Of a stretch of 64,000 nt of DNA, positions 5,160 to 50,193 are shown in pieces. The notes beneath the pieces were generated by a model. That model saw only the letters and a list, made by a program, of their open reading frames with translations, was not told the origin of the DNA and searched no databases. Source of the stretch: Gloeobacter morelensis MG652769 (lineage in GTDB: Bacteria > Cyanobacteriota > Cyanobacteriia > Gloeobacterales > Gloeobacteraceae); contig NZ_CP063845.1 in the NCBI RefSeq assembly GCF_021018745.1, positions 186,001 to 250,000 of the forward strand, given 5' to 3'. Both the position numbers and the translations under genes were made by a program. Positions within the stretch are counted from its first letter, which is position 1. Each line of letters begins with the position of its first letter.

Positions 5160-5996
5160 ATGGCAGGTAGCAAGTATGGAATGGCGATCGCAGCGGCGTT
5201 GGCCGCAGCAATGACGGCCGCGTCGGTCTCGGCGAGCACCGCCGTGGTGAGCAAGTGGGTGACGGGCCTCGACAAGCCCCAGGGCCTCGCCCTCGTCGGC
5301 AAGGACATCTGCGTGGTGGAGCAGGGAGCAGGCCGGGTGGTTTGCTACACCCCGGACGGCAAGAACCCGACGGTGGCGGCAAAGGATCTGCAGCGCCCAT
5401 CGTGGTCGGTCGAGATGGATGGGGTGCTCTACGTGGCCGAGCGCAACGGCAACGGCCTCGCCCGCGTCCAGTCGGGGCAGGTGAGCCGCCTGGAGGGCAA
5501 GATCACCGACCCGCTGGGTACGATCAAAGATCCGAGCCGCAAAGGCTCGCTGCTGGTGGTCTCCCACCGCACCGGTGAGGTGAGCCGCTACGCGCCCGAC
5601 GGCAAAGGCAGCCTCAAAAAAGAAGAGCCGCCGGTCACCATCAACCCGCGCGAGGCGACCTACGGCTGGCGCGACATCGCAGTTGCGGCCGACGGCACCG
5701 CCTACGTCACCGACCAGGTCGACAAGGGCGTCCACCGCTGGGCACCGGGCGAGAAGCCGACCCTCTGGGCCAAAGGCTTCACCGACCCGAGCGGGCTGGC
5801 CATCTCCCCCGCCGGGGACATCTACGTCACCGACATCGGCAGCGGCCAACTGGTGCGCCTCGACAAGCAGGGCAAACCGACCGTGGTGGCCGACAAGCTC
5901 GGCAAACCCCGCGAAGCCCTCTTCATCGATGAGCGCACGCTGCTGATCAGCGACGAGGGTGAAGGCAACGTCTACCAGGTGAAGCTGGGAAGTTAG
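5160..5996 (+). CDS. Exported NHL/SMP-30-like beta-propeller protein
   Basis: About 278 residues: an N-terminal signal peptide ([20 protein letters not shown]) followed by repeated blades of the pattern G-L-A-(hydrophobic)3-x-D-I-Y-V-T-D-x-G-x-G-x-L-V-R-L, typical of NHL/SMP-30-type six-bladed propellers. Such proteins bind ligands or act as lactonases; no catalytic residues can be assigned here. ATG 5160 is preferred over an in-frame TTG at 5148 because GAGG sits just upstream. It ends 5 nt from the convergent end of the large fusion gene at 6001. Confidence 0.7.
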
Positions 5997-6000
5997 CCGA

Positions 6001-8682
6001 CTACGGCAACCAGGACCACAGCTCGACGGTCACAAAGCGCACCAGCGGATGGCTGAAGGCCTGGAAGACCGGCTGGGTCTCGCCGGTGACCTTGGCGTAG
6101 CCGGTCATGCCGGGCTTCATCTCGGCTTTGGCTTGCGGGAAGTCGACCACGACATTCACGTAGCGCGTCGTGCTCTTGAGCAACTCGGTCGGGTCGGCGC
6201 CGTACTCGACGCTCTTGGTGACGTTTTGGGGGTCGTTCTTGTTGTAGGAGGTGGCCACCGGTTCGATCGAGGCCACCTTGCCTGCAAACGAACGGGTCGG
6301 GTAGGCCCACAATTTGACTTCCACCTCGCCGCCGGGCTTGAAGCCGTCGCCCGCCTGGTACTCGGGCATCTGGATAGTGCCGGTGATGCGGCTGGCGTGC
6401 TGGGCCACTCCCAGCACATCGCCCACCTGCATGCGGCTACCGACCTTCCAGTCGAGGTTGGGGGTGATGATATAGCCGTCGAAGGGCATCACCACTTTGG
6501 TGAAGTTGAGCTGCTGGCGGTAGTAAGCGTACTGGTCCTGGACCCGCTTGAGTTCGGCTCGTTCTTGCTCCACCTTGCTGCGGGCGGCAGTAATTTCCTG
6601 CGGGTGGGGACCGGCCATCACCAGGCGCAAATTCGATTGGGCCTGCTCCAGGCGCTGCCCGGCGCTGGCCAGGCTCTCCTGGGCGGTCTCGACGCCGATG
6701 CGCTCGGTCTCCGCTTCGCGCTTGGCGTTCTCATAGACCTGATCGGAGACGACCCCTTCTTTGCTGAGTTTCAAGTTGCGCTCCGCTTCGCGGGCGCTGA
6801 AGTCGGCTTTGCTCTTGGCGGTCACCAGTTGGCTTTTGGCCACCGAGACTTCCTGGCGGGCGACACTCACCTGATCGCGCGCCACCTGCACCTCTTCGGG
6901 CCGGGGCATGCTCAGCAACTTGCGCAGTTCTTCCTGGGCGGTAATCAGGGCCGCTTCTTTGGTGCGCACGTCCGAAAGGCCCGTGTTCACCTGGTTCTGG
7001 GTGTCCACCGAGCGCAAAAGGGCGAGGGTGGTGCCGGCCTTGATGAGCTTTTGATCGCCGCCTTTGAAGTAGAGCTTGTCGAGCACGCCTTCGACTTCGA
7101 CGGCGATCGGCTGCTGGCGAGGAGGCAACAGCTGGATCGCCCCGCCGTAGTGGTAGGTATAGGGCAGCATTAAAATTACGACAAAAGCCGCCAGGATCAG
7201 CCAGGGCAGACCTTTGCGGAACACTTCCCACGCGTTGAAGCCGCCGCCGAAGCGCGGCGGCGCCGAGCCGGGCGCTCCCAGGGCGCCGGCCGACTGCTGG
7301 GGGGCCAGTTGCAAATCCGCCTGCTCCCCTTGCGGCAGCAGATGGCTCGTCTGGCTCGCCGGGGTGATCGCCGCCTGGTCAGAACCCAGGGGCGACGAAG
7401 AAGCTTTTTTAGAAGTCCGAGTTTTGTCGCGCACGAGTAACCACCAATGGATAGCGAATGGGAAAGGCAGGCAAAACAATAGTATCCCCAGACCTTCGCC
7501 CAAAAGATCGGGGACCAGCTTTTGCAGCGCCTCGGCGCTGTGCAGAGTAATGTAGGCAAAAAACGCCAGCCAGACCACCTCGCCGACCAGCGCAAAAAAA
7601 GTCATCCGCAACCGGTCGCCCAGGGGAATGGTGTCCGGCAGCCACTGCAGACGCAACAGCCGCTCGACAATCTGGCGGTTGCGCTTAAACAAACTCGGCG
7701 GCAGCCGGTAGTAGGCCACCACCACACCGTAGGCGTCGCTCGGCCAGAGCGGGTTGGAGTCGAGCACCGTATCCACGAAGGCCATATAACACAGCGACAC
7801 GGCCCAGGCGCTCATGCTGTTGGTCGAACCGTGGTTGAGGTACCAGGTGAGGCCGCCCAACACAAACAACAGCAAGCGCACGAGGATCGGAGTCGCGAAG
7901 GTCCAGATCTGCTGCTCGCGGGTGAGCCCGCGAAACAGCGGTCCCTTGCCGACGGTGAAGCGCGGAAAAAAGCCGAAGAGCATCTGCAAACCGAACTGCT
8001 CGACCGCTACGCCGTAATGGGAGGCGACGACGGCTTGGGCGACTTTGCTGATGCTGTTGACCACCAGGATGTTGACCATATGCTTGGTCAACCCGTCGAT
8101 GGGCGAGTAGTACTCTGAAAAATCCTGAAAAAACAGGATCTGGTTGTTGAGGATCGTAATCAGCGTCAGCGGGACGGTCGGGATGAGCAGCAAAAACGCG
8201 AGCTTAAAGAGCAGGTGGAACGGTTCGAGCAGGCGGGCAAACAGCACGAACACCGGTGCCAGCTCGGGGTAGTACCACTTGTAGGGCATGTCGCTTTTGG
8301 GCTTTTTGCCCTGCCCCGGCTCCCCCGTATCTTCAAAGGCACCCCCCGCCCCGAACGGCTGCGCCTCGGAGACAACGATCGTGGCCGTCGTCTGTTGGCG
8401 TTCGCTATAGCGCTCGAGCAACCCGTATTCGCCAATTTGTCGACAAAAAGGCTCGAAGTCCTCTTCGCTCATCTTGAGGCCAAAGCGCGCCTCGAAAGCC
8501 TCGATAATCTGGCGCGGCGTCAGGGCGCCGTCCATCAGCTGACAGAGAAAAAACTCTTCCTCGCCAAACTCAAACGTCTCCCCACTCGCCGGATCCTTGA
8601 TGCGGTAGGTCTTGACGCCCGCCTTCATAACCTCATCGACGATGAGATCCCTGCGAAAGCAAGTTTGAAGGGGCTGGTACAT
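6001..8682 (-). CDS. PqqD-like / pseudo-M50 peptidase / HlyD membrane-fusion chimera
   Basis: An 893-residue fusion. Residues 1-90 resemble a PqqD-type winged helix (peptide recognition in RiPP pathways). Residues about 145-420 form the polytopic membrane core of M50-type proteins, and after a Pro/Ser/Gln-rich linker a single membrane helix precedes a HlyD part: lipoyl half-motif, a long Gln/Glu/Arg/Ala coiled coil, second lipoyl half (F-D-G-Y-I-I-T-P-N) and beta-barrel. The zinc-site HExxH of active M50 peptidases is replaced by S212-K-V-A-Q216 ahead of the conserved S-H-Y-G-V block, while the second-site motif N310-P-L-W-P-S-D316 keeps its Asp. It is therefore probably not a peptidase but a scaffold or exporter. 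ATG 8682 has a clean GGAGG 5 nt upstream. It is the last gene of a minus-strand run with the phosphatase-fold and TPR genes. Confidence 0.8.
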   Translation of the reverse strand: MYQPLQTCFRRDLIVDEVMKAGVKTYRIKDPASGETFEFGEEEFFLCQLMDGALTPRQIIEAFEARFGLKMSEEDFEPFCRQIGEYGLLERYSERQQTTATIVVSEAQPFGAGGAFEDTGEPGQGKKPKSDMPYKWYYPELAPVFVLFARLLEPFHLLFKLAFLLLIPTVPLTLITILNNQILFFQDFSEYYSPIDGLTKHMVNILVVNSISKVAQAVVASHYGVAVEQFGLQMLFGFFPRFTVGKGPLFRGLTREQQIWTFATPILVRLLLFVLGGLTWYLNHGSTNSMSAWAVSLCYMAFVDTVLDSNPLWPSDAYGVVVAYYRLPPSLFKRNRQIVERLLRLQWLPDTIPLGDRLRMTFFALVGEVVWLAFFAYITLHSAEALQKLVPDLLGEGLGILLFCLPFPFAIHWWLLVRDKTRTSKKASSSPLGSDQAAITPASQTSHLLPQGEQADLQLAPQQSAGALGAPGSAPPRFGGGFNAWEVFRKGLPWLILAAFVVILMLPYTYHYGGAIQLLPPRQQPIAVEVEGVLDKLYFKGGDQKLIKAGTTLALLRSVDTQNQVNTGLSDVRTKEAALITAQEELRKLLSMPRPEEVQVARDQVSVARQEVSVAKSQLVTAKSKADFSAREAERNLKLSKEGVVSDQVYENAKREAETERIGVETAQESLASAGQRLEQAQSNLRLVMAGPHPQEITAARSKVEQERAELKRVQDQYAYYRQQLNFTKVVMPFDGYIITPNLDWKVGSRMQVGDVLGVAQHASRITGTIQMPEYQAGDGFKPGGEVEVKLWAYPTRSFAGKVASIEPVATSYNKNDPQNVTKSVEYGADPTELLKSTTRYVNVVVDFPQAKAEMKPGMTGYAKVTGETQPVFQAFSHPLVRFVTVELWSWLP

Positions 8683-39304: not shown

Positions 39305-39712
39305 CTAGACGACGGTCCGGCGCGGGCGCAACAGGAAGATGAGAGCGGCAGCCAGTGCCAGGGCCACCGCCACGGCGGCGCTCAATAGCCGCGCGACCCC
39401 CCCAGAATCGAGCGCTCCTACCCACAGGACACCGGCCAATGCCATCAACCAGAAGCTGCTGAGCAGGGCCGGAGCGGCGGGCATGGCTGGAGGGGGCGAC
39501 TGGTTGTTGGCACCAACGGCGGCGTCCACCTCCAGACGGGACAAAAAATGCTCCCAGGCGCGGGCAAAGCCCAGTCCGCCCGCGATGGCCACTGCAAGCA
39601 ACGTCCACCCCGGCATCCAGTGGGCAACGTATAAATTCGATAATCCAAAGACGCCGCAGGCGATCGATGTCGTCCCCAAAAGTGCGATGGCCAGTCCCCA
39701 AAAAATGGTCAC
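39305..39712 (-). CDS. Small polytopic membrane protein
   Basis: A 135-residue hydrophobic protein with about four membrane segments. It starts at a GTG that overlaps the stop of the preceding DUF2499 gene (GTGA, 4 nt), so translation is coupled. The middle contains a hydrophilic loop with P-P-P-A-M-P-A-A-P. No family assigned; its partner gene encodes another membrane protein, so the two may form one complex. Confidence 0.6.
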   Translation of the reverse strand: MTIFWGLAIALLGTTSIACGVFGLSNLYVAHWMPGWTLLAVAIAGGLGFARAWEHFLSRLEVDAAVGANNQSPPPAMPAAPALLSSFWLMALAGVLWVGALDSGGVARLLSAAVAVALALAAALIFLLRPRRTVV

Positions 39713-40023
39713 GGTGCTTTTTGGGGCCCGCGGCGGGCGGAGCGGTAGATCAGATAGGCTGCAAACGCCAGCGTGGTGTTGCCCAGGAGGGTCATCGCCG
39801 CCTGCAGTTGGCCCAGATAGGCCAGATCGGGCCGATTGTCGAAGTAATGCCAGACCAGGACCGCCATCGCTCCCACCAGCGCCGGCAGCATCCCCCAGCA
39901 CAGCGCCCGGAAGGACCGCTCGCCCGTGCGCTCGCCGTAGCGCCAGATCAGTGCGATGGCCAGCGTCCACTCGACGACACTGGCGATATGAATGATCCAG
40001 GTGGGTAGAGAGAGCGCCTGCAT
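39709..40023 (-). CDS. DUF2499-like membrane protein
   Basis: A 104-residue protein with three hydrophobic segments. The opening L-S-L-P-T-W-I-I-H-I-A-S-V-V-E-W and W-R-Y-G-E are typical of DUF2499, a family shared by cyanobacteria and plastids of plants, of unknown function. ATG 40023 is chosen at the start of this motif. Translationally coupled to the next membrane protein gene. Confidence 0.75.
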   Translation of the reverse strand: MQALSLPTWIIHIASVVEWTLAIALIWRYGERTGERSFRALCWGMLPALVGAMAVLVWHYFDNRPDLAYLGQLQAAMTLLGNTTLAFAAYLIYRSARRGPQKAP

Positions 40024-40126
40024 GGGCTCAGGGTAACACCCGCAAAGCTGAATATTTTGGGTAGTTCTATTCGAATGCGCCCCGGCCCTGCTAGAACAAC
40101 CTTGTTTGTTTTTGGCAGAGCACCAC

Positions 40127-40786
40127 ATGGCACTACTGGTCATGGTCCGCCACGGTCAATCGATCTGGAACCTCGAAAACCGCTTTACCGGCTGGACTGA
40201 CGTTCCCCTGACCGAAAAAGGGCGGGCGGAAGCCCGTGCCTGCGGCGAGTTGATCTATTGCATCCCCTTCGCCGTCGCCTTCACCTCTAAACTGACGCGC
40301 GCCCAAGACACCTTGCGCCTCATTCTCGAAGCCGCCGAGCAACCGGACGTGCCGGTGGTCGAGGATCAGGCCCTCAACGAGCGCCACTACGGCGAGCTGC
40401 AGGGGCTCAACAAAGCCGAAACTGCCGCGAAGTACGGCGAGGAGACGGTCCGGCGGTGGCGGCGCAGCCTGGAGGGGCGTCCCCCCGGCGGCGAGAGTCT
40501 CAAAGACACCGCTGTGCGCTCATTGCGCTATTTTTACGAAAGAATTGTTCCTGAGCTGGAGGCGGGCAAGAACGCGATCGTCAGCGCCCACGGCAACACC
40601 ATTCGGGCTATTTTGATGGAACTCGATCACCTGAGCCCCGAGCAGGTCGAAAAAGTTGAAATCGAATACTGCGTGCCGGTCGCTTTTGAGCACCGAGAAG
40701 ACGGCACCTTCTGCCAGGTGCTCATGCCCCAATGCGACATCATCCGGCCGCCGCAGCCGCCGGCCCGCAGCATCGCCCGGCTCTAG
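40127..40786 (+). CDS. gpmA: 2,3-bisphosphoglycerate-dependent phosphoglycerate mutase
   Basis: A 219-residue glycolytic enzyme converting 3-phosphoglycerate to 2-phosphoglycerate. Phosphohistidine motif V-R-H-G-Q-S-I-W-N at the N-terminus, F-T-G-W-T-D-V-P-L-T, L-T-R-A-Q-D-T, N-E-R-H-Y-G-E-L-Q-G-L-N-K, P-P-G-G-E-S-L-K-D-T and the second catalytic His in A-H-G-N-T-I-R-A: all key parts present. Length normal. Its stop codon shares the CTAG tetramer with the convergent psbX stop. Confidence 0.95.
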   Translation: MALLVMVRHGQSIWNLENRFTGWTDVPLTEKGRAEARACGELIYCIPFAVAFTSKLTRAQDTLRLILEAAEQPDVPVVEDQALNERHYGELQGLNKAETAAKYGEETVRRWRRSLEGRPPGGESLKDTAVRSLRYFYERIVPELEAGKNAIVSAHGNTIRAILMELDHLSPEQVEKVEIEYCVPVAFEHREDGTFCQVLMPQCDIIRPPQPPARSIARL

Positions 40787-41457: not shown

Positions 41458-41667
41458 ATGAAATCGACGCGCGCCCTGTTTTTGTTGGTGCTTTTAGCGG
41501 CTTTGGGCCTGACGGCCTGCGCCAACCAACCTTCGGTCGAAGAAGCCCAAAAACCCGGTCTCGGCAACACACCGGTCCCCTCGGGCAATGCCCCGGCCCC
41601 GAGCAACACCGAGGCTCCCGAAGGGGTGCCCACTTCGACGCCGGTGGAGGGCACCTCGACTCCCTAG
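41458..41667 (+). CDS. Small putative lipoprotein
   Basis: A 69-residue protein with a lipoprotein signal: basic start, hydrophobic core L-F-L-L-V-L-L-A-A-L-G, lipobox L-T-A-C21. The mature 49 residues are Pro/Ser/Thr/Glu-rich and unstructured. GAGGAA lies 10 nt before the ATG. Its stop codon shares CTAG with the convergent phosphoesterase stop. Role unknown. Confidence 0.75.
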   Translation: MKSTRALFLLVLLAALGLTACANQPSVEEAQKPGLGNTPVPSGNAPAPSNTEAPEGVPTSTPVEGTSTP

Positions 41668-42581
41668 GAGGCGGCGTTCAGGCGCCGGGCCAACCGGCGC
41701 TGGGTGAGCAAAGGCAATTGCAGACGGTAGCGCCCGCGCCGGTCGCGGCGGCTTCCAACGGTGAGCGGATACCACAGCGGGCGCCGCTTCGACTCGGGAA
41801 CCACCGGGATCCAGTCGTAGCGCAACCGCGCGGAGCGGGCGGTCAATTCCAGTTGAAAGTGGCGAAAAGCGTTGGGGGGGCCGCCCAGGGACGGGGCGCT
41901 GAAGTAGGGCCGCTTGCGGTAGCTCCAGCGGCGCGGCACGTGCAGGTGGCCGCTCAGCACGGCAACCACGTTCGGCGCGGCGGCCATCAGTTCGGCGAAC
42001 TGGCTGCCGTCGAGGGGGTTGAGGCGAAAATCGCGAAAGTAAGCCGGTGCCACCGGCGGGTGGTGCAGGGCGACGATCACCTGCTCATCGCGGTGCACCA
42101 GAAGTTGCCAGCGCAGCCACTCCATCTGCTCGGCGGGCAGGCAGCCCTGGGCGTGGGGAAACAGCACCGGGACCGTGTCGAGGACGATGAGCCGGTAGCC
42201 GGGCTTGACCGGCACGCTGTAGTACAGCTTTTCCGGCAGGGCGAGGCGTTCGGCGAAGGTCTGCTTGGTCAACCGCCCCGGCCAGGGTTTGCCCACCACG
42301 TCATGGTTGCCCACCACCACGTGATAAGGACACGGTAGAGCGCCCGCGATCGCCACGAACTGATCGAGGGCCGCCGCTTCGGCCTGATCGAACAGGTCGC
42401 CCGTGAAGACGACAAAATCGACGCCACCCAGGGCACAGACTTTTTCTACCGCCAATTGCAGCAGATACTCGGGCCGCTCCGAGAGCCACCAGCCCGAGCG
42501 GCCGGCATTCGGCCGCAGGTGGACGTCTGAGATCTGCACAAAGTTCAGCTGAGGCTCAAGCTTCACCGGGGGTTTCTCCAT
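41664..42581 (-). CDS. Calcineurin-like metallophosphoesterase (CpdA-type)
   Basis: About 305 residues. All five metal motifs are in place: I-S-D-V-H-L, F-T-G-D-L-F-D, V-V-G-N-H-D, A-L-H-H-P-P and L-S-G-H-L-H-V. The closest architecture is the class III cyclic-nucleotide phosphodiesterase (CpdA) group, but other phosphodiesters are possible. Start uncertain: ATG 42581 (M-E-K-P-P-V-K-L) is used, ATG 42602 is also in frame; neither has a good RBS. Confidence 0.85.
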   Translation of the reverse strand: MEKPPVKLEPQLNFVQISDVHLRPNAGRSGWWLSERPEYLLQLAVEKVCALGGVDFVVFTGDLFDQAEAAALDQFVAIAGALPCPYHVVVGNHDVVGKPWPGRLTKQTFAERLALPEKLYYSVPVKPGYRLIVLDTVPVLFPHAQGCLPAEQMEWLRWQLLVHRDEQVIVALHHPPVAPAYFRDFRLNPLDGSQFAELMAAAPNVVAVLSGHLHVPRRWSYRKRPYFSAPSLGGPPNAFRHFQLELTARSARLRYDWIPVVPESKRRPLWYPLTVGSRRDRRGRYRLQLPLLTQRRLARRLNAAS

Positions 42582-42718
42582 TGTGGGCTGCGGATAGGGC
42601 ATGGGAAGCACCCCGCCCGCTGATCCAGCCCGCTTTTATCTTGGCAAACTTCCAGGCGACCCGACTCGGGCTTCAAAATGAAGCTACCAGAAGCGACAGC
42701 TCAAAAGCAACGAAATCT

Positions 42719-42778: not shown

Positions 42779-43363
42779 ATGGAGGTCACCAACCGCTCTG
42801 CCCAGGAGCGTTTCAGGCAATGGCTGCCCTACTTGTCTTCGGCGACGGTCACCTTTTTGCTCCTCGCGTTGAGCACGGGGGTTTTGCTGGGAGGGCACTT
42901 TGTCCCTTCGCTCGACGCCTACGATTCGACCCGGCAGATCACTTACCAGACCAACTTTGGCTGGGCGGTGCGCGGTTTGCACTGGTGGGCGAGTTCTTTG
43001 ACGCTGGTGTGCAGTCTGGCGTTTACCGCTCTGGCCTACTGGTACGGTTATTTTCGCGGTCCGGCCAAATGGATGTGGTGGACAGGTCTGGTGATGGGCC
43101 TGATGCTGCTTGGGGCGAATGTGACCGGTTATTACTTGCCTTTGGATCAGAACGCTTACTGGCGCTTGATGATCGAGGCGAATCTGTTCGCCGATGTGCC
43201 GGTGCTGGGGGCGGCACTCAAGTATTTTCTGCTCAACGGTTCGGGGGTGAGTGACGCGAGCATTGCCCGAATCCACTGGCTGCACAGCGTCGTGATGCCT
43301 CTGTTCACCGTACTGGCTTTGGTCTCCCATGTTTACGCAGCAAAAAAAGCAAGACTCTTCTAA
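42779..43363 (+). CDS. Divergent cytochrome b6-like subunit
   Basis: A 194-residue membrane protein homologous to cytochrome b6 (N-terminal half of cytochrome b): F-G-W-A-V-R-G-L-H68-W-W, V-T-G-Y-Y-L-P-L-D-Q-N-A-Y-W, and R-I-H-W-L-H169 followed by H184 fifteen residues on. In b6 the hemes use His pairs at positions equal to H68/H169 and to residue 82/H184; here residue 82 is Phe. The Cys that holds heme cn in b6 (the F-Y-C-L-G-G region) is also absent (L-P-Y-L-S-S-A). It may thus bind one heme b or have changed ligands. It is not the standard petB product. AGGA lies 8 nt before the ATG. Confidence 0.8.
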   Translation: MEVTNRSAQERFRQWLPYLSSATVTFLLLALSTGVLLGGHFVPSLDAYDSTRQITYQTNFGWAVRGLHWWASSLTLVCSLAFTALAYWYGYFRGPAKWMWWTGLVMGLMLLGANVTGYYLPLDQNAYWRLMIEANLFADVPVLGAALKYFLLNGSGVSDASIARIHWLHSVVMPLFTVLALVSHVYAAKKARLF

Positions 43364-43736
43364 GACCATTTCCGCCGCCGGTCGCTCGCTCGACACGCGG
43401 GTCTTCGACATCGCTTTGGTGGTGATCGCTTCGATTGGGGTGGCCCTGGTGCTCACGGTTCTGGAGCCTCCGCGCCTTGTTGACGCCTACGACGTCTTCG
43501 CCACCCCCGAGGTCCTGCCGGAGTGGTACATGTTACCCGCCTTTTTCATTATTAAGGCTTTGCCTGCCAAAATTCTGGGTCTGGCGGCGATGGCCGGGGT
43601 GGTCGTCGGATTATTCCTGCTGCCGTTGTTGCCCGATCTGGGCAAGCGCCTGCCGGGGGGCCGCTTTTGGGGCCGGGCGGCTTTTGTCGCTATCCACATC
43701 GGGGTGGCAATGCTGGGCTTCTTGACTTTGGTTTAA
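43329..43736 (+). CDS. Divergent cytochrome b subunit IV-like protein
   Basis: A 135-residue membrane protein matching subunit IV (C-terminal half of cytochrome b). The Qo-site P-E-W-Y motif is intact (L-P-E65-W-Y-M-L-P), preceded by D-V-F-A-T-P-E-V and followed by two or three helices with L-P-A-K-I-L-G-L-A-A-M-A. Its start lies 35 nt inside the cytochrome b6-like gene, a long overlap that implies coupled synthesis. No Rieske, cytochrome f or cytochrome c1 gene is adjacent. Confidence 0.82.
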   Translation: MFTQQKKQDSSKTISAAGRSLDTRVFDIALVVIASIGVALVLTVLEPPRLVDAYDVFATPEVLPEWYMLPAFFIIKALPAKILGLAAMAGVVVGLFLLPLLPDLGKRLPGGRFWGRAAFVAIHIGVAMLGFLTLV

Positions 43737-43814: not shown

Positions 43815-44978
43815 CTAGGGTCGGTTTGCCCCATCGAGCACCTTGAGGATCGCCTCCGCCCCTCTGACGATGACGCCCGGTTCACCCAATTGGGCTTTGA
43901 CCCGCGCGTACCCCTCGCGCATGCGCTGGGCGGCCTCGGGGTTTTTGAGCAACTCCAGGCTTGTGGCGGAGAGGGCTTCAACCGTCGCTTTATCTTGCAA
44001 AAATTCGGGCACCACGGCGCTCATCTCCACCAGGTTGACCGGGCACATATAGGGGATTGTAAAGCCCATGACCTTTTTGGCGAACCAGTAGGTGCGCGGG
44101 TCGACGCGGTAGGCCACCACCTGGGGCAAGTTCAACAGTGCTGCTTCCAGATTGATCGTGCCGGATTTGGTGAGCAGCAAGTCGGCGGCGGCGAGCGCGT
44201 CGTAATTGCTGCCGGGGGGGATGAACTGCACAGCGATACCCGCCGCTTTGGCGCCCTGTTCGATGGCTTCTTGAAAAGTCGGGGTGGAAACCGAAAGCCA
44301 GAAGCGCACCTCCGGCAACTGAGCGGCAATGGCGCGGGCCGTCTCGAACAACAGCGGCATCAGGTGGCGCAACTCCTGGGTGCGCGAGGCCGGGGTGAGG
44401 ACCACCACCGGTGCCCCCGGCGGGGTGCCCATGCGCGCGCGAAATTCGGCGCGACTCACGCTGGTGCGGACGATGTCGACCAGGGGATGGCCGATCCAGC
44501 GGACGTTGCCGCCGTGGCGGGTGTAAAAGCGGGCTTCCTCCGGAAAGATGGCGAGGATGAGGTCGGTAAAACCGACGATCTGGGCGGTGTCGCCCTTAAA
44601 CGTCCGCCAGACCCATTCCTGGGGTGCGATGTAGTAGATCACCGGAATACCCAGCTTCTGGGCCAGCTTGCCCACCCCGACGTTGGAGCCGATGTAGTCG
44701 ATGAGTACCACCGCGTCGGGGCGAAAGCTGGTGAGCAGCTTTTTGAGGCGCACCTGGATGCGCAGGGTCGGCAGGATATAAGGGATGGCCTCGATGACGC
44801 CGATCGAGGAGAGGGTGGTGGTGTCGCTCAGCATCGGGATGCCCAGTTGGGCCATGCGCCGGCCACCCAACGCCTGAATTTCCAGATCCGGACGGCGCTC
44901 GCGCAGCGCCTGGATGAGATAGCTGCCGTGCAGGTCGCCTGAGACCTCGCCGGTGCTGACAAAAAGCCGGGCTGCCAT
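43815..44978 (-). CDS. lpxB: Lipid-A-disaccharide synthase
   Basis: A 387-residue peripheral inner-membrane GT19 enzyme that joins UDP-2,3-diacylglucosamine and 2,3-diacylglucosamine-1-phosphate. Signatures: S-T-G-E-V-S-G-D-L-H-G at the N-terminus, I-D-Y-I-G-S-N, P-Q-E-W-V-W-R, F-P-E-E, and the donor-site K-S-G-T-I-N-L-E-A-A-L. Last gene of the lpx block, starting 4 nt after lpxA. A palindrome ACCCTAGCTAGGGT straddles its stop codon. Confidence 0.96.
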   Translation of the reverse strand: MAARLFVSTGEVSGDLHGSYLIQALRERRPDLEIQALGGRRMAQLGIPMLSDTTTLSSIGVIEAIPYILPTLRIQVRLKKLLTSFRPDAVVLIDYIGSNVGVGKLAQKLGIPVIYYIAPQEWVWRTFKGDTAQIVGFTDLILAIFPEEARFYTRHGGNVRWIGHPLVDIVRTSVSRAEFRARMGTPPGAPVVVLTPASRTQELRHLMPLLFETARAIAAQLPEVRFWLSVSTPTFQEAIEQGAKAAGIAVQFIPPGSNYDALAAADLLLTKSGTINLEAALLNLPQVVAYRVDPRTYWFAKKVMGFTIPYMCPVNLVEMSAVVPEFLQDKATVEALSATSLELLKNPEAAQRMREGYARVKAQLGEPGVIVRGAEAILKVLDGANRP

Positions 44979-44982
44979 CGAT

Positions 44983-45840
44983 TTAGGCGTCGTCGCCGCT
45001 GGGGCGCTTGCGGGCGGCGGGGGTGGGACCGCGCCGCGCCGGGTCGCCCACCGACCGGCTCAAAAACGTGTGTAGGTGATCGATATAGGGATTGCCCGCC
45101 AGGGCCTGCAACTCGACTAGGGCCTTTTCGAGGGGCGTAGCGGAGCGGTAGAGCAGCTTGTAGGCCTGGCGGAGCAGGCGGTAGCTCTCGCGGTCGGCGT
45201 CGGCGGCGTCGGAGATGCCGGCGCGCTCGAGGCCCACCCAGTTGAGACCGCGGGTGCGGCCCGGGTGGCCCTCCACCAACGTAAAAGGCGGCACGTCGCG
45301 GTCGACGCGGGCCATACCGCCGATGTAGGCGAGCCTGCCGATGTGCACGAACTGGTGGACGCCCACCAGGCCGCCGATGCGCGCCTGCGACTCGATGTGC
45401 ACATGGCCGGCGAGCATCACGGCGTTGGTGATCACGACGTTGTCGCCGATAGCGCAGTTGTGGCCGACGTGCACGTAGGCCATCAACAGATTCTTGTCGC
45501 CCACGACGGTCTCGCTGCCTTTGTCGGTGCCGCGGTTGATGGTGACAAATTCGCGGATGTCGTTGTTGTCGCCGATGCGCACCCGCGAGGGTTCATTGCG
45601 GTACTTGAGATCCTGGGGTGGGGTGCCGATGCTGGCGCCGTTGTAGATGACGTTGTCGCAGCCGATCTCCGTCCAGCCGTCGATCACGGCGTGGGAACCT
45701 ACCACCGTGCCCGCCCCGATGCGCACGTGCTCGCCTACCACTGCGAACGGGCCAACCTGGACGCTCTCGTGCAGGACAGCCCGCGGGTGAATGACGGCTG
45801 CAGGGTGGATCAAAGGTGTCGTCAAGGCGGGTGGATTCAT
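44983..45840 (-). CDS. lpxA: UDP-N-acetylglucosamine O-acyltransferase
   Basis: First enzyme of lipid A synthesis, adding a 3-O-acyl group from acyl-ACP to UDP-GlcNAc. About 285 residues of left-handed beta-helix built of hexapeptide repeats (V-G-P-F-A-V-V-G, I-G-A-G-T-V-V-G); the G-T-P-P-Q-D-L-K-Y-x-x-E-P block, R-E-F-V-T-I-N-R-G-T and A-Y-V-H-V-G-H-N-C with the catalytic His are clear. The C-terminal helical domain carries a longer, basic tail than usual. ATG 45840 is used; ATG 45861 is also in frame. A 40-nt gap follows fabZ. Confidence 0.95.
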   Translation of the reverse strand: MNPPALTTPLIHPAAVIHPRAVLHESVQVGPFAVVGEHVRIGAGTVVGSHAVIDGWTEIGCDNVIYNGASIGTPPQDLKYRNEPSRVRIGDNNDIREFVTINRGTDKGSETVVGDKNLLMAYVHVGHNCAIGDNVVITNAVMLAGHVHIESQARIGGLVGVHQFVHIGRLAYIGGMARVDRDVPPFTLVEGHPGRTRGLNWVGLERAGISDAADADRESYRLLRQAYKLLYRSATPLEKALVELQALAGNPYIDHLHTFLSRSVGDPARRGPTPAARKRPSGDDA

Positions 45841-45880
45841 GACTTTTGACGATTGTGGCATGGGCGGGAGATGGCTGGAC

Positions 45881-46309
45881 TCAATCTACCAGGGAAAACA
45901 TGATCTCGGCCTCGGCTACCAGTTTGCCATCGACCTCCGAGCGGGTCTGCATGATCCCGAAGCGCTTCTGGCGGGTGCGCAGATCCTCGGCGGTGATGAT
46001 CACCTGATCGCCCGGCACCACCTGGCGGCGAAAGCGGGTCTTGTTGACCCCCACCAGCAGGGGGATCTTGCCCACCGCCTCCGGTAGCTGTCCACAGACG
46101 ATGCCGCCCACCTGGGCCATCGCCTCGATGAGCAAGGCCCCCGGCATCAGCGGCCGACCGGGGAAGTGCCCCTGGAAGAACGGCTCGTTGATGGTGACGT
46201 TTTTGATGCCGACCGCCCGCACCCCCGGCTCGAAGACGAGCACGCGGTCGACGAGTAAAAACGGGTAGCGGTGGGCGAGGATCTTCTGAATTTCGATGTT
46301 GTCGATCAT
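45881..46309 (-). CDS. fabZ: 3-hydroxyacyl-ACP dehydratase
   Basis: A 142-residue hot-dog-fold dehydratase of fatty acid synthesis. [27 protein letters not shown] (catalytic His) and L-I-E-A-M-A-Q (catalytic Glu) are all present. ATG 46309 overlaps the lpxC stop (ATGA), so translation is coupled. It competes with LpxA/LpxD for the same 3-hydroxyacyl-ACP pool, which explains its place in this operon. Confidence 0.96.
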
Positions 46310-47166
46310 TGGGACGGCTTTTGAGAGCATGCGGATGGAACGGGAACCTTTTCGGCAAGGGCGCGGGCGAGCCTGCCGTGCAGGGCGTGGCCCGCTTTGT
46401 AGGCGACGATGTGTCCACCGAGGGCGACTCCCGCCAGACTCAAATCCCCCAACAGATCGAGCAGCTTGTGGCGGGCAGGCTCGTCGGGCCAGGTGGGCGG
46501 TGTGAGCCAGTCGTCGGCACCGGCCACCAGGGCGCAATCGAGGCTGCCTCCCTGAATCAGACCACAGGAGAGCAGTTGCTCGACCTGGGACTGGAGCGTG
46601 AAGGTGCGCGCCGGAGCCACCTCGCGGGCAAAATTCTCAGAGGTCAGCTTGAGGCTGAACCAGTGCCGGCCGATCGGGTGGGCGAAGTCGATACCGTAAC
46701 TGACCTGCAAAGCCGGGGTGTCGGTGGGCATGGCGGCTACGAAGGCGTCGCGCTCGTAGACGGCTACCGGTTCGGCAATCTGATAGAAGCGCCGGGGAGC
46801 GTTTTGCAGGACGGTTCCCGAGCGGACCATCGCCTCGACGTAGGGGCGGGCGGAGCCGTCGAGGATGGGCAGTTCGGGACCGTCCACCTCGATGCGGCAG
46901 TTGTCGATCCCCAGACCGTAGAGGGCCGCAAGCACGTGCTCGACGGTCTGAATCGCCGCGTCGTTCTCGCTGAGGGTGGTGCACAGGGGACTCGGACGAA
47001 AGCCGCGGGCCAGGGCCGGGATCGCCGGGGTGCCGGCAAGATCGGCGCGCACAAAGTACCGGCCGCTGCCTGCAGGAGCCGGGCACAGCCGCACGGCGAC
47101 GGACGCCCCCTTGTGCAAAGAGATGCCCGAAAGCTGGACGGTGGCGGCCAGGGTCTGCTGCTGCAC
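46306..47166 (-). CDS. lpxC: UDP-3-O-acyl-N-acetylglucosamine deacetylase
   Basis: A 286-residue zinc amidase, the committed step of lipid A synthesis. [17 protein letters not shown] (zinc His), [10 protein letters not shown], and [11 protein letters not shown] (zinc His and Asp) and A-G-H-A-L-H (catalytic His) are visible. It begins 3 nt after the lpxD stop and overlaps fabZ by 4 nt. Confidence 0.96.
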
Positions 47167-47169
47167 AGA

Positions 47170-48219
47170 TCAAAGCCTCCCCAACAGCTGCACTTCTAAT
47201 TGTTCGATGCGCCGCTGCATCTGGCGCATCTGCTCGACGATCTGCGGCAGGCGCGAGCGGGCCGCCTGCTGCTTGAGTTCGAGCAGGTGATCTTGGGCCG
47301 GAAAACCAGAGACTTTAGAGTGATCGGGCAAATCTTTGGTCACCCCGGAACGGGCCAGCACCAGGCAATCGGCGCCCACGTTGGTCTGGTTGGCCACCCC
47401 CGCCTGCCCGGCGATCACGGTGCGGTCGCCGACTTTGACCGACCCCGCCAGCCCAACCTGGGAAACGATCAGGCAGTGGCGGCCGATGCGGTCGTTGTGG
47501 CCAATGTGGACTAGATTGTCGATCTTGGTGCCCGTCTGGATTTCGGTCTGGCCCATCGTGGCGCGGTCCACCGCAACGTTGGCGCCCACCTCGACGTCGT
47601 CACCGATAACCACCGTGCCCACCTGCGGCACTTTGAGATGTCTTTCGCCGGTCGGCACAAAGCCGTAGCCGTCGGAGCCGAGCACGCTGCCCGCGTGGAT
47701 GACCACCCGGTCGCCCAGGCAGATGCCGTCCATGAGCACTACGTTCGGATAAATCAGACACCCGCTGCCCACCACCGCCTCCGCCCCGACGTACACCCCC
47801 GGAAATAGGCGCGTCTCAGCTCCGACTGCGGCGCGCGGACCGACGTAGACCAGGGCCGCCACCGAGGCACTTGGATGGACGAGGGCACTCGGATGGACGA
47901 CCGCACTCGGATGGATGCCCGCGGGCGGCATCGCAATCGGCTGCGGAAACATGTGGGCGAGCACCTGCGCCATGGCCAGGCGCGGGTTGGCCACCACGAT
48001 CTGGGTGAGATGCTCGAAGGGCCAGCGCACCGGGGTGATCGCCACCCCGGCGCGGGTCGTCTCGATGAGCTTGCGCGCATGCAGGTCGAGGGCAAAGGTC
48101 AGATCGCCCCCTTCGGCTTCCTCCGGAGGCCGGGCACCCACGACCAGCCGCCCGGGATCGCCCGACAGCTCGCCGCCGACCAGGTCGGTCAATTCAGCAG
48201 CGCTGAATTGGACTCCCAT
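47170..48219 (-). CDS. lpxD: UDP-3-O-acylglucosamine N-acyltransferase
   Basis: A 349-residue trimeric hexapeptide acyltransferase, third enzyme of lipid A synthesis. N-terminal uridine-binding domain ([10 protein letters not shown]), then beta-helix with F-P-G-V-Y-V-G, D-G-Y-G-F-V-P and H-I-G-H-N-D-R-I-G with the catalytic His, closing with a helix of [13 protein letters not shown]. It starts directly (0 nt gap) after the bamA stop codon. Confidence 0.96.
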
Positions 48220-50193
48220 CTAAAATTTTTCTCCAAGGCCAAAGTGCACCTGGCTGGGCAGCCCGGCGGTGTTGGCGGCAAAGTCGATGCGCAGGGGACC
48301 GAGGGGCGACTGGACACGCAGGCCGATGCCGTAGCCCAGGCCCGCGCCGATTTTGCCGCGCACGATGGCCGGCGCCCCGAGGACGGCCGCCTGGGAACCG
48401 AGGGTGGTGCCGTAGTCGACAAAAAGCGCCGCCCCCACCGGATCGAAGACCGGGGCGCGAAACTCGACGGAGTTGATCATATAGCTGCGGCCGGTGCCGA
48501 GGTTGCCTTCAAAAAAGCCGCGCACCGAGTTGCCGCCGCCCAGGGTAAAGGCTTCGTAGGGCGGCAGCGAGCCGAAGACCGTACCCACAGAACTGTTGAG
48601 GGCGAGTACCTGCTTGCCCTGGCCCCAGGGGAGGATGTCCATCGGGATGAACTGGCTGTAGGAGACGGTCGGCCGCGTGAAGAAGACATCCCCCAACACT
48701 CCCACCGACTGGTCCAAAGAACCGCGCAACACCGAGCCGGAGCGCGGCGTGTTCGGGTTGTCGCGGGTGTCGCGCACCAGCGCCCCCTGCAGGAAAAAGA
48801 GCCGGTCGGTGTCGGTGCCGCTGATCGTGAGGGGGTTGCCGAGGTTGTCGGTGGTATAGCGCCGCCCCAAAAAGTCGCGCAACTGGACCGTTTCGAAGCG
48901 TGCCCCCGCCGAGGCGCGCCATTCGTTGTTGAGGGGCCGACCAAAGATGACCCCCAGACCGAGGCGATTTTCGCGGGGCGTCTCGACGAAGCCCGTACGC
49001 GGGTTGAGCACCCCGACGCCACCGCCGTTGAAGACGTAGCTGAAGGCCTGGCGGTTGAAAATGTTCGTCGAAAGCGACGTGCGATTGGGGTCGCCCGCGA
49101 GCCACGGGTCGGTAAAGCTCAAGTTAAACAGCAAAATCTGGCCGCCGCCCTGCACATCGAGGCCGATCTTCTGGTTGTTGCCGCCCAGGTTGCTCTCCTG
49201 CAGCGACAGGGTGCCAAAAAAGCCGTAGGCCGAGTTGACGCCTGCACCCGCGGCGATCGAGCCGGTACTTTTCTCTTCGACTTTGATATTGACGACCACT
49301 TTTTGGGGATCTTGCCCCTGGCCCAGGTCGAGGCCCACATCCTTGAAAATATTGAGTGCGTAGACCCGCTGCAAGTCGCGCTGGATAGCGTTGCGGTTAA
49401 ATACTCCCCCCGCCTTGAGGGCGACTTCGCGGGTCACGATAAAGTCGCGCGTGCGGGTGTTGCCCTTGACGCGGATATCCTCGATGATCCCCTCGGCGAC
49501 GGTGAGCTTGACTTTGCCGTCGGGGGTCGATTGCACGTCGGCGACTTTGGCGAGCACATAGCCGCGCTCGGCGTACCATTCTTCGATCGATTTGACGCCG
49601 CGCTGCAGTTCACCAAAGTTGAGTGTCTGGCCCACCTGGTTTTTGAACGTTTCTTGCACCACGGTCTCCGGCAGCAGGGTGGCCCCCTCGGTACTCACCG
49701 CCTCCAGGGTCGGGTTGGGGGATACGTCGAAGGTGACGCGCACGCCGAGCGGGGTGTCCTCCGGGGTGGCCTTGACGTCGGCGAAGTAGCCGGTGGCAAA
49801 GACGGCGTTGATGTCCTGCTGCAGTTGGGTGCGGGTGGTGGTCTGGCCGGGGCGGGTGCGGATGGCATTGTAGACGCGCCCTTCGAGGGAGTCGCCGAGC
49901 TTGCCCTTGCTCGCTACGACCCGGACTTCGGCTACGAGCACCTGCGGCTCGGCAGGAGCGGTCGGTTCGGTGGGAGCCTGCTGCGGTTCGGCCGGCGGCG
50001 TATCCGGGACGGCCGGGGTAGCGGCGGGCGGCGTCTCAGCGGGCTGTGCCGTACCGGCGGGAGGAGCCTCCGGAGCAGCAGCCGGCGGCGCCTGCTCCTG
50101 GGCTAGAAGCGCCGGGGTGAATCCCAACTGGGCGACAAGCAGCACCGAGGCAGCAGTCTGCCCGTGACCAGAACGTCCAAAAAGTGGGTGCAT
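48220..50193 (-). CDS. bamA: Omp85/BamA-type outer-membrane assembly factor
   Basis: A 657-residue outer-membrane protein. Signal peptide (V-L-L-V-A-Q-L-G-F-T-P-A-L-L-A), then a Pro/Ala/Glu-rich linker of about 50 residues, three POTRA domains (around residues 85-330) and the 16-stranded barrel with F-T-L-G-G-G-N-S-V-R-G-F (the V-R-G-F loop motif) and G-L-G-Y-G-I-G-L-R-V-Q-S-P-L-G-P-L-R-I-D-F-A, ending in a C-terminal Phe. Cyanobacterial Omp85 has three POTRAs and a Pro-rich N-terminus, as here. It leads the lpx block, so envelope lipid and protein insertion are co-expressed. Confidence 0.93.
   Translation of the reverse strand: MHPLFGRSGHGQTAASVLLVAQLGFTPALLAQEQAPPAAAPEAPPAGTAQPAETPPAATPAVPDTPPAEPQQAPTEPTAPAEPQVLVAEVRVVASKGKLGDSLEGRVYNAIRTRPGQTTTRTQLQQDINAVFATGYFADVKATPEDTPLGVRVTFDVSPNPTLEAVSTEGATLLPETVVQETFKNQVGQTLNFGELQRGVKSIEEWYAERGYVLAKVADVQSTPDGKVKLTVAEGIIEDIRVKGNTRTRDFIVTREVALKAGGVFNRNAIQRDLQRVYALNIFKDVGLDLGQGQDPQKVVVNIKVEEKSTGSIAAGAGVNSAYGFFGTLSLQESNLGGNNQKIGLDVQGGGQILLFNLSFTDPWLAGDPNRTSLSTNIFNRQAFSYVFNGGGVGVLNPRTGFVETPRENRLGLGVIFGRPLNNEWRASAGARFETVQLRDFLGRRYTTDNLGNPLTISGTDTDRLFFLQGALVRDTRDNPNTPRSGSVLRGSLDQSVGVLGDVFFTRPTVSYSQFIPMDILPWGQGKQVLALNSSVGTVFGSLPPYEAFTLGGGNSVRGFFEGNLGTGRSYMINSVEFRAPVFDPVGAALFVDYGTTLGSQAAVLGAPAIVRGKIGAGLGYGIGLRVQSPLGPLRIDFAANTAGLPSQVHFGLGEKF

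Follow-up and report, generated by a model that had tools for sequence, protein, structure and literature searches.

What does a cytochrome b6 do when it has lost one of the histidines that hold its second heme? The question is raised by two overlapping genes in a window of 64,000 nucleotides (G000:C1:186001-250000) from the 5.1 Mb genome of the cyanobacterium Gloeobacter morelensis. The first, petB2 (42779..43363, plus strand), encodes a divergent cytochrome b6 paralog of 194 amino acids with four transmembrane helices. The second, petD2 (43329..43736, plus strand), encodes a divergent subunit IV of 135 amino acids with three transmembrane helices and the PEWY motif. The two genes share 35 nucleotides, stop codon included (43329..43363), an arrangement that suggests translational coupling. 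An earlier note on this DNA had taken them for a second b6/subunit IV pair, and had proposed that they form a reduced bc-type module carrying one heme b.

The general family of the two proteins is readily recognized. PetB2 scores 105.2 bits against Pfam PF00033 (E 5e-30; curated cut-off 27.2), and PetD2 scores 45.2 bits against PF00032 (E 1.2e-11; curated cut-off 20.7). Against the profiles of the canonical proteins, however, the scores fall below the curated cut-offs. For PetB2, this is 103.2 bits against NCBIfam PRK03735 (canonical b6; cut-off 325), where the canonical b6 of the same genome scores 380.6 bits; for PetD2, it is 59.1 bits against TIGR01156 (subunit IV equivalog; cut-off 127.05). 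PetB2 is about 30% identical to that canonical b6 and begins some 20 residues later. Its AlphaFold model (36 rows; pLDDT 91, pTM 0.85) finds its best PDB match by VIA-align in 7r0w_A (Z 22.6, 185 aligned residues, rmsd 2.3); the modelled fold is that of b6.

The genome holds exactly two b6 genes and exactly two subunit IV genes. The canonical petBD lies outside the window, at about 20.7-21.8 kb of the same contig (G000:C1), and has all four axial histidines and the heme cn cysteine. Thus, petB2 is not the sole b6 of its genome, and the pair is indeed a second one. The distance between the two pairs is about 207 kb here, 49 kb in G001 and 1.06 Mb in G003; in G004 (ES-bin-313, locus L044, G004:C189:10000-26000), both are on the same strand with about 4 kb between them.

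Placing the PetB2 model on 2e74_A gives its key residues the numbers of b6. Here, residues 8..194 correspond to residues 26..212 with an offset of 18, and H68, F82, R129, H169 and H184 of PetB2 become H86, H100, A147, H187 and H202 of b6. A comparison of the heme ligands covered eight PetB2 sequences, 27 canonical b6 sequences, 30 sequences of a b6-like group from other cyanobacteria (here called Q-type), and 13 outgroup cytochromes b. Read at positions 35, 86, 100, 187 and 202, the pattern is CHHHH in 27 of 27 canonical sequences and xHFHH in 8 of 8 PetB2 sequences; all four histidines are present in 13 of 13 outgroups.

On the n-side, H100, a ligand of heme bn, is thus phenylalanine in every PetB2 (F82; codon 43022..43024, plus strand, computed from the start at 42779). 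C35, the cysteine that holds heme cn covalently, is replaced by tyrosine in seven orthologs and by methionine in one. Both changes had been claimed from the single sequence, and both extend to all eight. The claim that the second heme had lost its ligand needs amendment, as only one of its two ligands is gone; H202 (H184) is invariant in the eight PetB2 and in the 30 Q-type sequences. Alignment found no compensating histidine within PetB2 at or near residue 82. The only invariant histidines are H68, H169 and H184, with H166 being asparagine in five orthologs. Nor is there a conserved methionine, lysine or cysteine near F82, C78 being variable.

The surroundings of the n-side hemes have changed as well. 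The positions of R103 and R114, both arginine in 27 of 27 canonical b6 proteins (R114 also in 13 of 13 outgroups), are hydrophobic or small in PetB2. In subunit IV, Phe40 is the residue nearest the iron of heme cn (PMC12112970); the corresponding residue of PetD2 is not phenylalanine. Together, the changes at H100, C35, R103, R114 and Phe40 make the absence of heme cn very probable, and leave heme bn either absent or five-coordinate. The phrase "one heme b" is plausible, although the invariant H202 might still hold a five-coordinate second heme. The incomplete set of axial histidines, the missing Cys35 and the scores below the curated cut-offs set PetB2D2 apart from canonical b6f.

A heme held by H202 alone might serve as a sensor. 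Here, a five-coordinate n-side heme would sense O2, NO, CO or redox state, and would signal through the pair. The invariance of H202 fits such a role, as do the uniform replacement of its partner (phenylalanine in 8 of 8 PetB2, glutamine in nearly all Q-type proteins) and the purifying selection described below. However, with R103 and R114 also lost from the pocket, the heme may be missing altogether, and neither protein contains a signalling domain. A sensor of this kind is quite improbable.

On the p-side, much is retained. The ligand pair of heme bp, H86/H187 (H68/H169), is present in PetB2 together with Arg83, and PEWY is invariant in 8 of 8 PetD2 sequences, as the first reading of the locus had suggested for the histidines and the motif. 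In the Qp region, Y136, P139, D141 and Q142 also remain. Other residues of that region do not. A147 is arginine in 8 of 8 PetB2 sequences (R129; codon 43163..43165, plus strand, computed from the start at 42779), which removes the small residue of the Qp gate, and V151 is glutamate (E133), again in all eight. The same two replacements are found in 30 of 30 Q-type sequences, in 0 of 27 canonical sequences and in 0 of 13 outgroups. In addition, the position of W140 holds leucine or methionine in PetB2, and the aromatic residue at 189 has become valine, leucine or isoleucine.

A147 forms one side of the lateral gate through which quinol reaches the Rieske protein (PMC12112970). Its counterpart in Rhodobacter capsulatus is G158, since residues 26-187 of PetB2 align with residues 54-215 of the R. 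capsulatus protein at an offset of 29, which pairs H68 with H97, H169 with H198, and R129 with residue 158. In that bacterium, the G158W mutation inactivates the Qo site, and H212N inactivates the Qi branch (PMC4330944). Given this precedent, A147R and the replacement of W140 make it doubtful that PetB2D2 oxidizes quinol in the usual way. PetB2 resembles the bc1 mutants G158W/H212N in that the same two functional sites are affected: the gate position is changed, and one bn/bH ligand is lost. However, the bc1 mutants are laboratory constructs, and H212, as the second of the two bH ligands, corresponds to H202, which PetB2 retains (PMC4330944).

With both ends of the Q-cycle apparently disabled, the idea of a reduced bc-type module stands only in part. 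There is a conserved second pair with no compensating histidine; quinol oxidation by that pair is the part that is weakened, by the arginine at 147 in 8 of 8 sequences and the loss of W140. Partners weaken it further. Each genome has one cytochrome f and no second copy; weak extra matches to PF01333 fell in reading frames of about 1,300 amino acids and were taken as RNA polymerase subunits. Likewise, each has one canonical PetC. A divergent extra Rieske protein (PetC-like, with CPCHSS rather than CPCHGS) occurs only in G003 and G007 (L097, about 5618-6193, plus strand; L098, about 5868-6458, minus strand), and was rejected as a dedicated partner because it does not track with the pair. No Rieske or c-type gene adjoins petB2 or petD2, as had been pointed out. 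This says little, however, because the canonical petBD and petCA of G000 are also separate. PetB2D2 may share the partners of canonical b6f, or may have others.

Those shared partners bear on the possibility that PetB2D2 is a quinol oxidase with one heme and no Q-cycle. Plastoquinol would be oxidized at Qp, one electron passing to the shared Rieske protein and cytochrome f, while the other would leave heme bp across the dimer or by a route that involves no quinone. The single PetA and canonical PetC of each genome are available for this, and the bp ligands, R83, Y136, P139, D141, Q142 and PEWY are in place. However, the reading must accommodate A147R, V151E and W140L/M in the very region where quinol would bind, an aliphatic residue at 189, and a low-potential electron with no obvious acceptor. 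It is unlikely, although less so than the other alternatives weighed here.

The neighborhood offers little to suggest a different electron partner. Across eight genomes, neither petB2 nor petD2 has a conserved redox gene next to it, and no operon partners were recognized where petD2 is unlinked (G006 and G007). A calcineurin-like phosphoesterase (41664..42611, minus strand), transcribed divergently and head-to-head with petB2, is the sole neighbor kept in all six Gloeobacteraceae; it is not kept in G006 or G007, and a functional link to petBD2 would be conjectural. Downstream (43815-50193, minus strand) is a cluster of lipid A genes, lpxB-lpxA-fabZ-lpxC-lpxD, and after it a large reading frame that by eye resembles an outer-membrane protein of the BamA/Omp85 type; the cluster adjoins petBD2 in G000, G001 and G002, and not in G003 or G004. 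At 39305-40143 (minus strand), a DUF2499 protein and a second small membrane-type reading frame are conserved in four Gloeobacter species.

Cytochrome b subunits are often recruited as membrane subunits of other oxidoreductases, and PetB2D2 might be the quinone- or heme-binding membrane part of another dehydrogenase or oxidoreductase. That such recruitment is common speaks for this, and a histidine in helix G of PetD2 (discussed below) could bind a further cofactor. However, the eight genomes show no conserved redox gene beside the pair, the phosphoesterase being the only neighbor that is kept. We consider this every bit as improbable as the sensor.

If PetB2D2 does not run the Q-cycle, is it then simply a duplicate in decay? 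The evolutionary record argues otherwise. Orthologs of petB2 occur in eight of nine sampled Gloeobacterales genomes, where the seven relatives show identities of 57-97%. The frame is open in all eight, across three families. No ortholog was found in the other 30 cyanobacteria of the same search, and a sample of 117 genomes from the phylum gave no further strong match. A pattern-based scan of contigs found no relatives outside Gloeobacterales; its four loci all belong to assemblies that the Gloeobacterales set had included before. Matches on plasmids were rejected as relatives, being ordinary bc-type cytochromes b.

Within the order, the two genes behave as a unit. The overlap is exactly 35 nucleotides in all six Gloeobacteraceae, which generalizes the length first seen in one genome. 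In G006 and G007, petD2 is unlinked to petB2 and yet present; in G008, both genes are absent. The joint presence and absence, together with the constant overlap, speaks for cooperation between the two products. Among Gloeobacter species, petB2 has a dN/dS of 0.09-0.19 and petD2 one of 0.08-0.18, compared to 0.00-0.03 for canonical petB. Thus, petB2 is under purifying selection. It is true that omega is several times that of canonical petB, and that several conserved sites have been lost, as would be seen in a decaying, functionless duplicate. An omega near 0.1, the open frames, the exact overlap in six genomes and the retention of both genes even where unlinked make that explanation disfavored and very improbable.

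Conservation also singles out a residue that PetD2 has gained. H123, in its third transmembrane helix (helix G), is invariant in 8 of 8 sequences (codon 43695..43697, plus strand, computed from the start at 43329). It aligns with T137 of subunit IV both by MAFFT and by the canonical profile HMM, the latter covering three of eight sequences through helix G. Canonical subunit IV has G136 followed by threonine, alanine or valine, with histidine in 0 of 19 sequences. We take G136/T137 to hold the water that ligates the single chlorophyll a of b6f, between helices F and G, although no paper stating a contact between T137 and the chlorophyll was found in the literature. The chlorophyll does lie against the fg loop and the G helix (PMC12112970). 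From its aligned position, H123 may be a direct histidine ligand to the magnesium of that chlorophyll; the structure model of PetD2 has a pLDDT of only 58. Helix G lies outside the heme bundle of b6, and H123 was for this reason judged unlikely to substitute as a ligand for heme bn.

The Q-type proteins give these changes a wider setting. A Q-type gene occurs in about 80 of 388 cyanobacteria (sequences L036-L040 and L120-L149), none of them being found as an additional match in Gloeobacterales, and a search of the literature found no description of the family. Its signature is YWRxxIE. Like PetB2, Q-type proteins have a short N-terminus, lack C35, have lost H100, keep H86, H187 and H202, and carry A147R and V151E. 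Unlike PetB2, they replace H100 with glutamine (29 of 30; glutamate in one), have lost the Qp motif GY.LP, and have a C-terminal tail. Five inspected loci showed no subunit IV gene and no conserved neighbor.

The shared A147R, V151E and loss of H100 suggest that PetB2 and Q-type proteins form a single ancient family. This is the simpler reading, with convergence being possible. In a tree built with the ligand columns removed, the two group with an SH-aLRT of 89, but branches are long and the AU test does not reject alternatives (p 0.17-0.37). Whether the two share a function is unsure, because Q-type genes have no subunit IV gene nearby.

The explanation that we prefer, and to which we give roughly half of our confidence, is that petB2-petD2 represents, in Gloeobacterales, an old family of cyanobacterial b6 paralogs, and encodes a membrane heme protein that does not run a Q-cycle. 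The pair would bind one low-spin heme b (bp), perhaps with a second, weakly held and five-coordinate heme through H202, and would perhaps retain the b6f chlorophyll with a direct histidine ligand. The usual electron route from bp through bn to Qn would be missing, and plastoquinol would probably not be oxidized normally. PetB2D2 might then serve as an inactive protomer or regulatory partner, sharing PetA, PetC and the small subunits with normal b6f; alternatively, it might form a separate complex that senses quinone or redox state. That the Q-cycle is unable to run normally is considerably safer than this functional step, where the chances are evenly balanced.

Some observations argue against this preferred explanation. 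With PEWY, D141, Q142 and much of the Qp loop, the pair retains more than an inactive quinol site would require; the arginine at 147 differs from the tryptophan of G158W; and the invariance of H202 in the eight PetB2 and 30 Q-type proteins argues against a plain loss of the n-side heme. A bolder version would make PetB2D2 an ancient pseudo-complex of b6f, with a dead Q-cycle, a histidine-ligated chlorophyll and an n-side heme of open coordination, acting as a built-in regulator or a light, redox or gas sensor of electron transport, and predating the split between thylakoid-less and thylakoid-bearing cyanobacteria. We regard this as a long shot.

The fold and the family are, of course, known. 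Canonical PetB and PetD share with this pair the split genes, the bp histidines, H202, PEWY and a three-helix subunit IV, and differ in overall identity, in H100, C35, R103, R114 and A147, and in the histidine at position 137 of subunit IV. In 2011, Malnoe and colleagues reportedly described ligand mutants of Chlamydomonas b6 with a "broken Q-cycle," whose b6f lacks the n-side b heme; unlike PetB2, those are engineered and have an intact Qp site. No paper was found on this pair, or on a natural loss of a heme ligand that goes together with a changed gate, a gained histidine and joint conservation.

Two b6-like groups of cyanobacteria have thus lost the same heme ligand and changed the same quinol-gate residues, and yet are conserved. 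Should both belong to a single family, that family predates the split of Gloeobacterales, and would offer in nature what the knock-out mutants used to dissect the Q-cycle offer in the laboratory. Gloeobacter-type cyanobacteria carry out photosynthesis and respiration in one membrane. There, PetB2D2 allows a direct test of what the b6/subunit IV scaffold can do without a Q-cycle.
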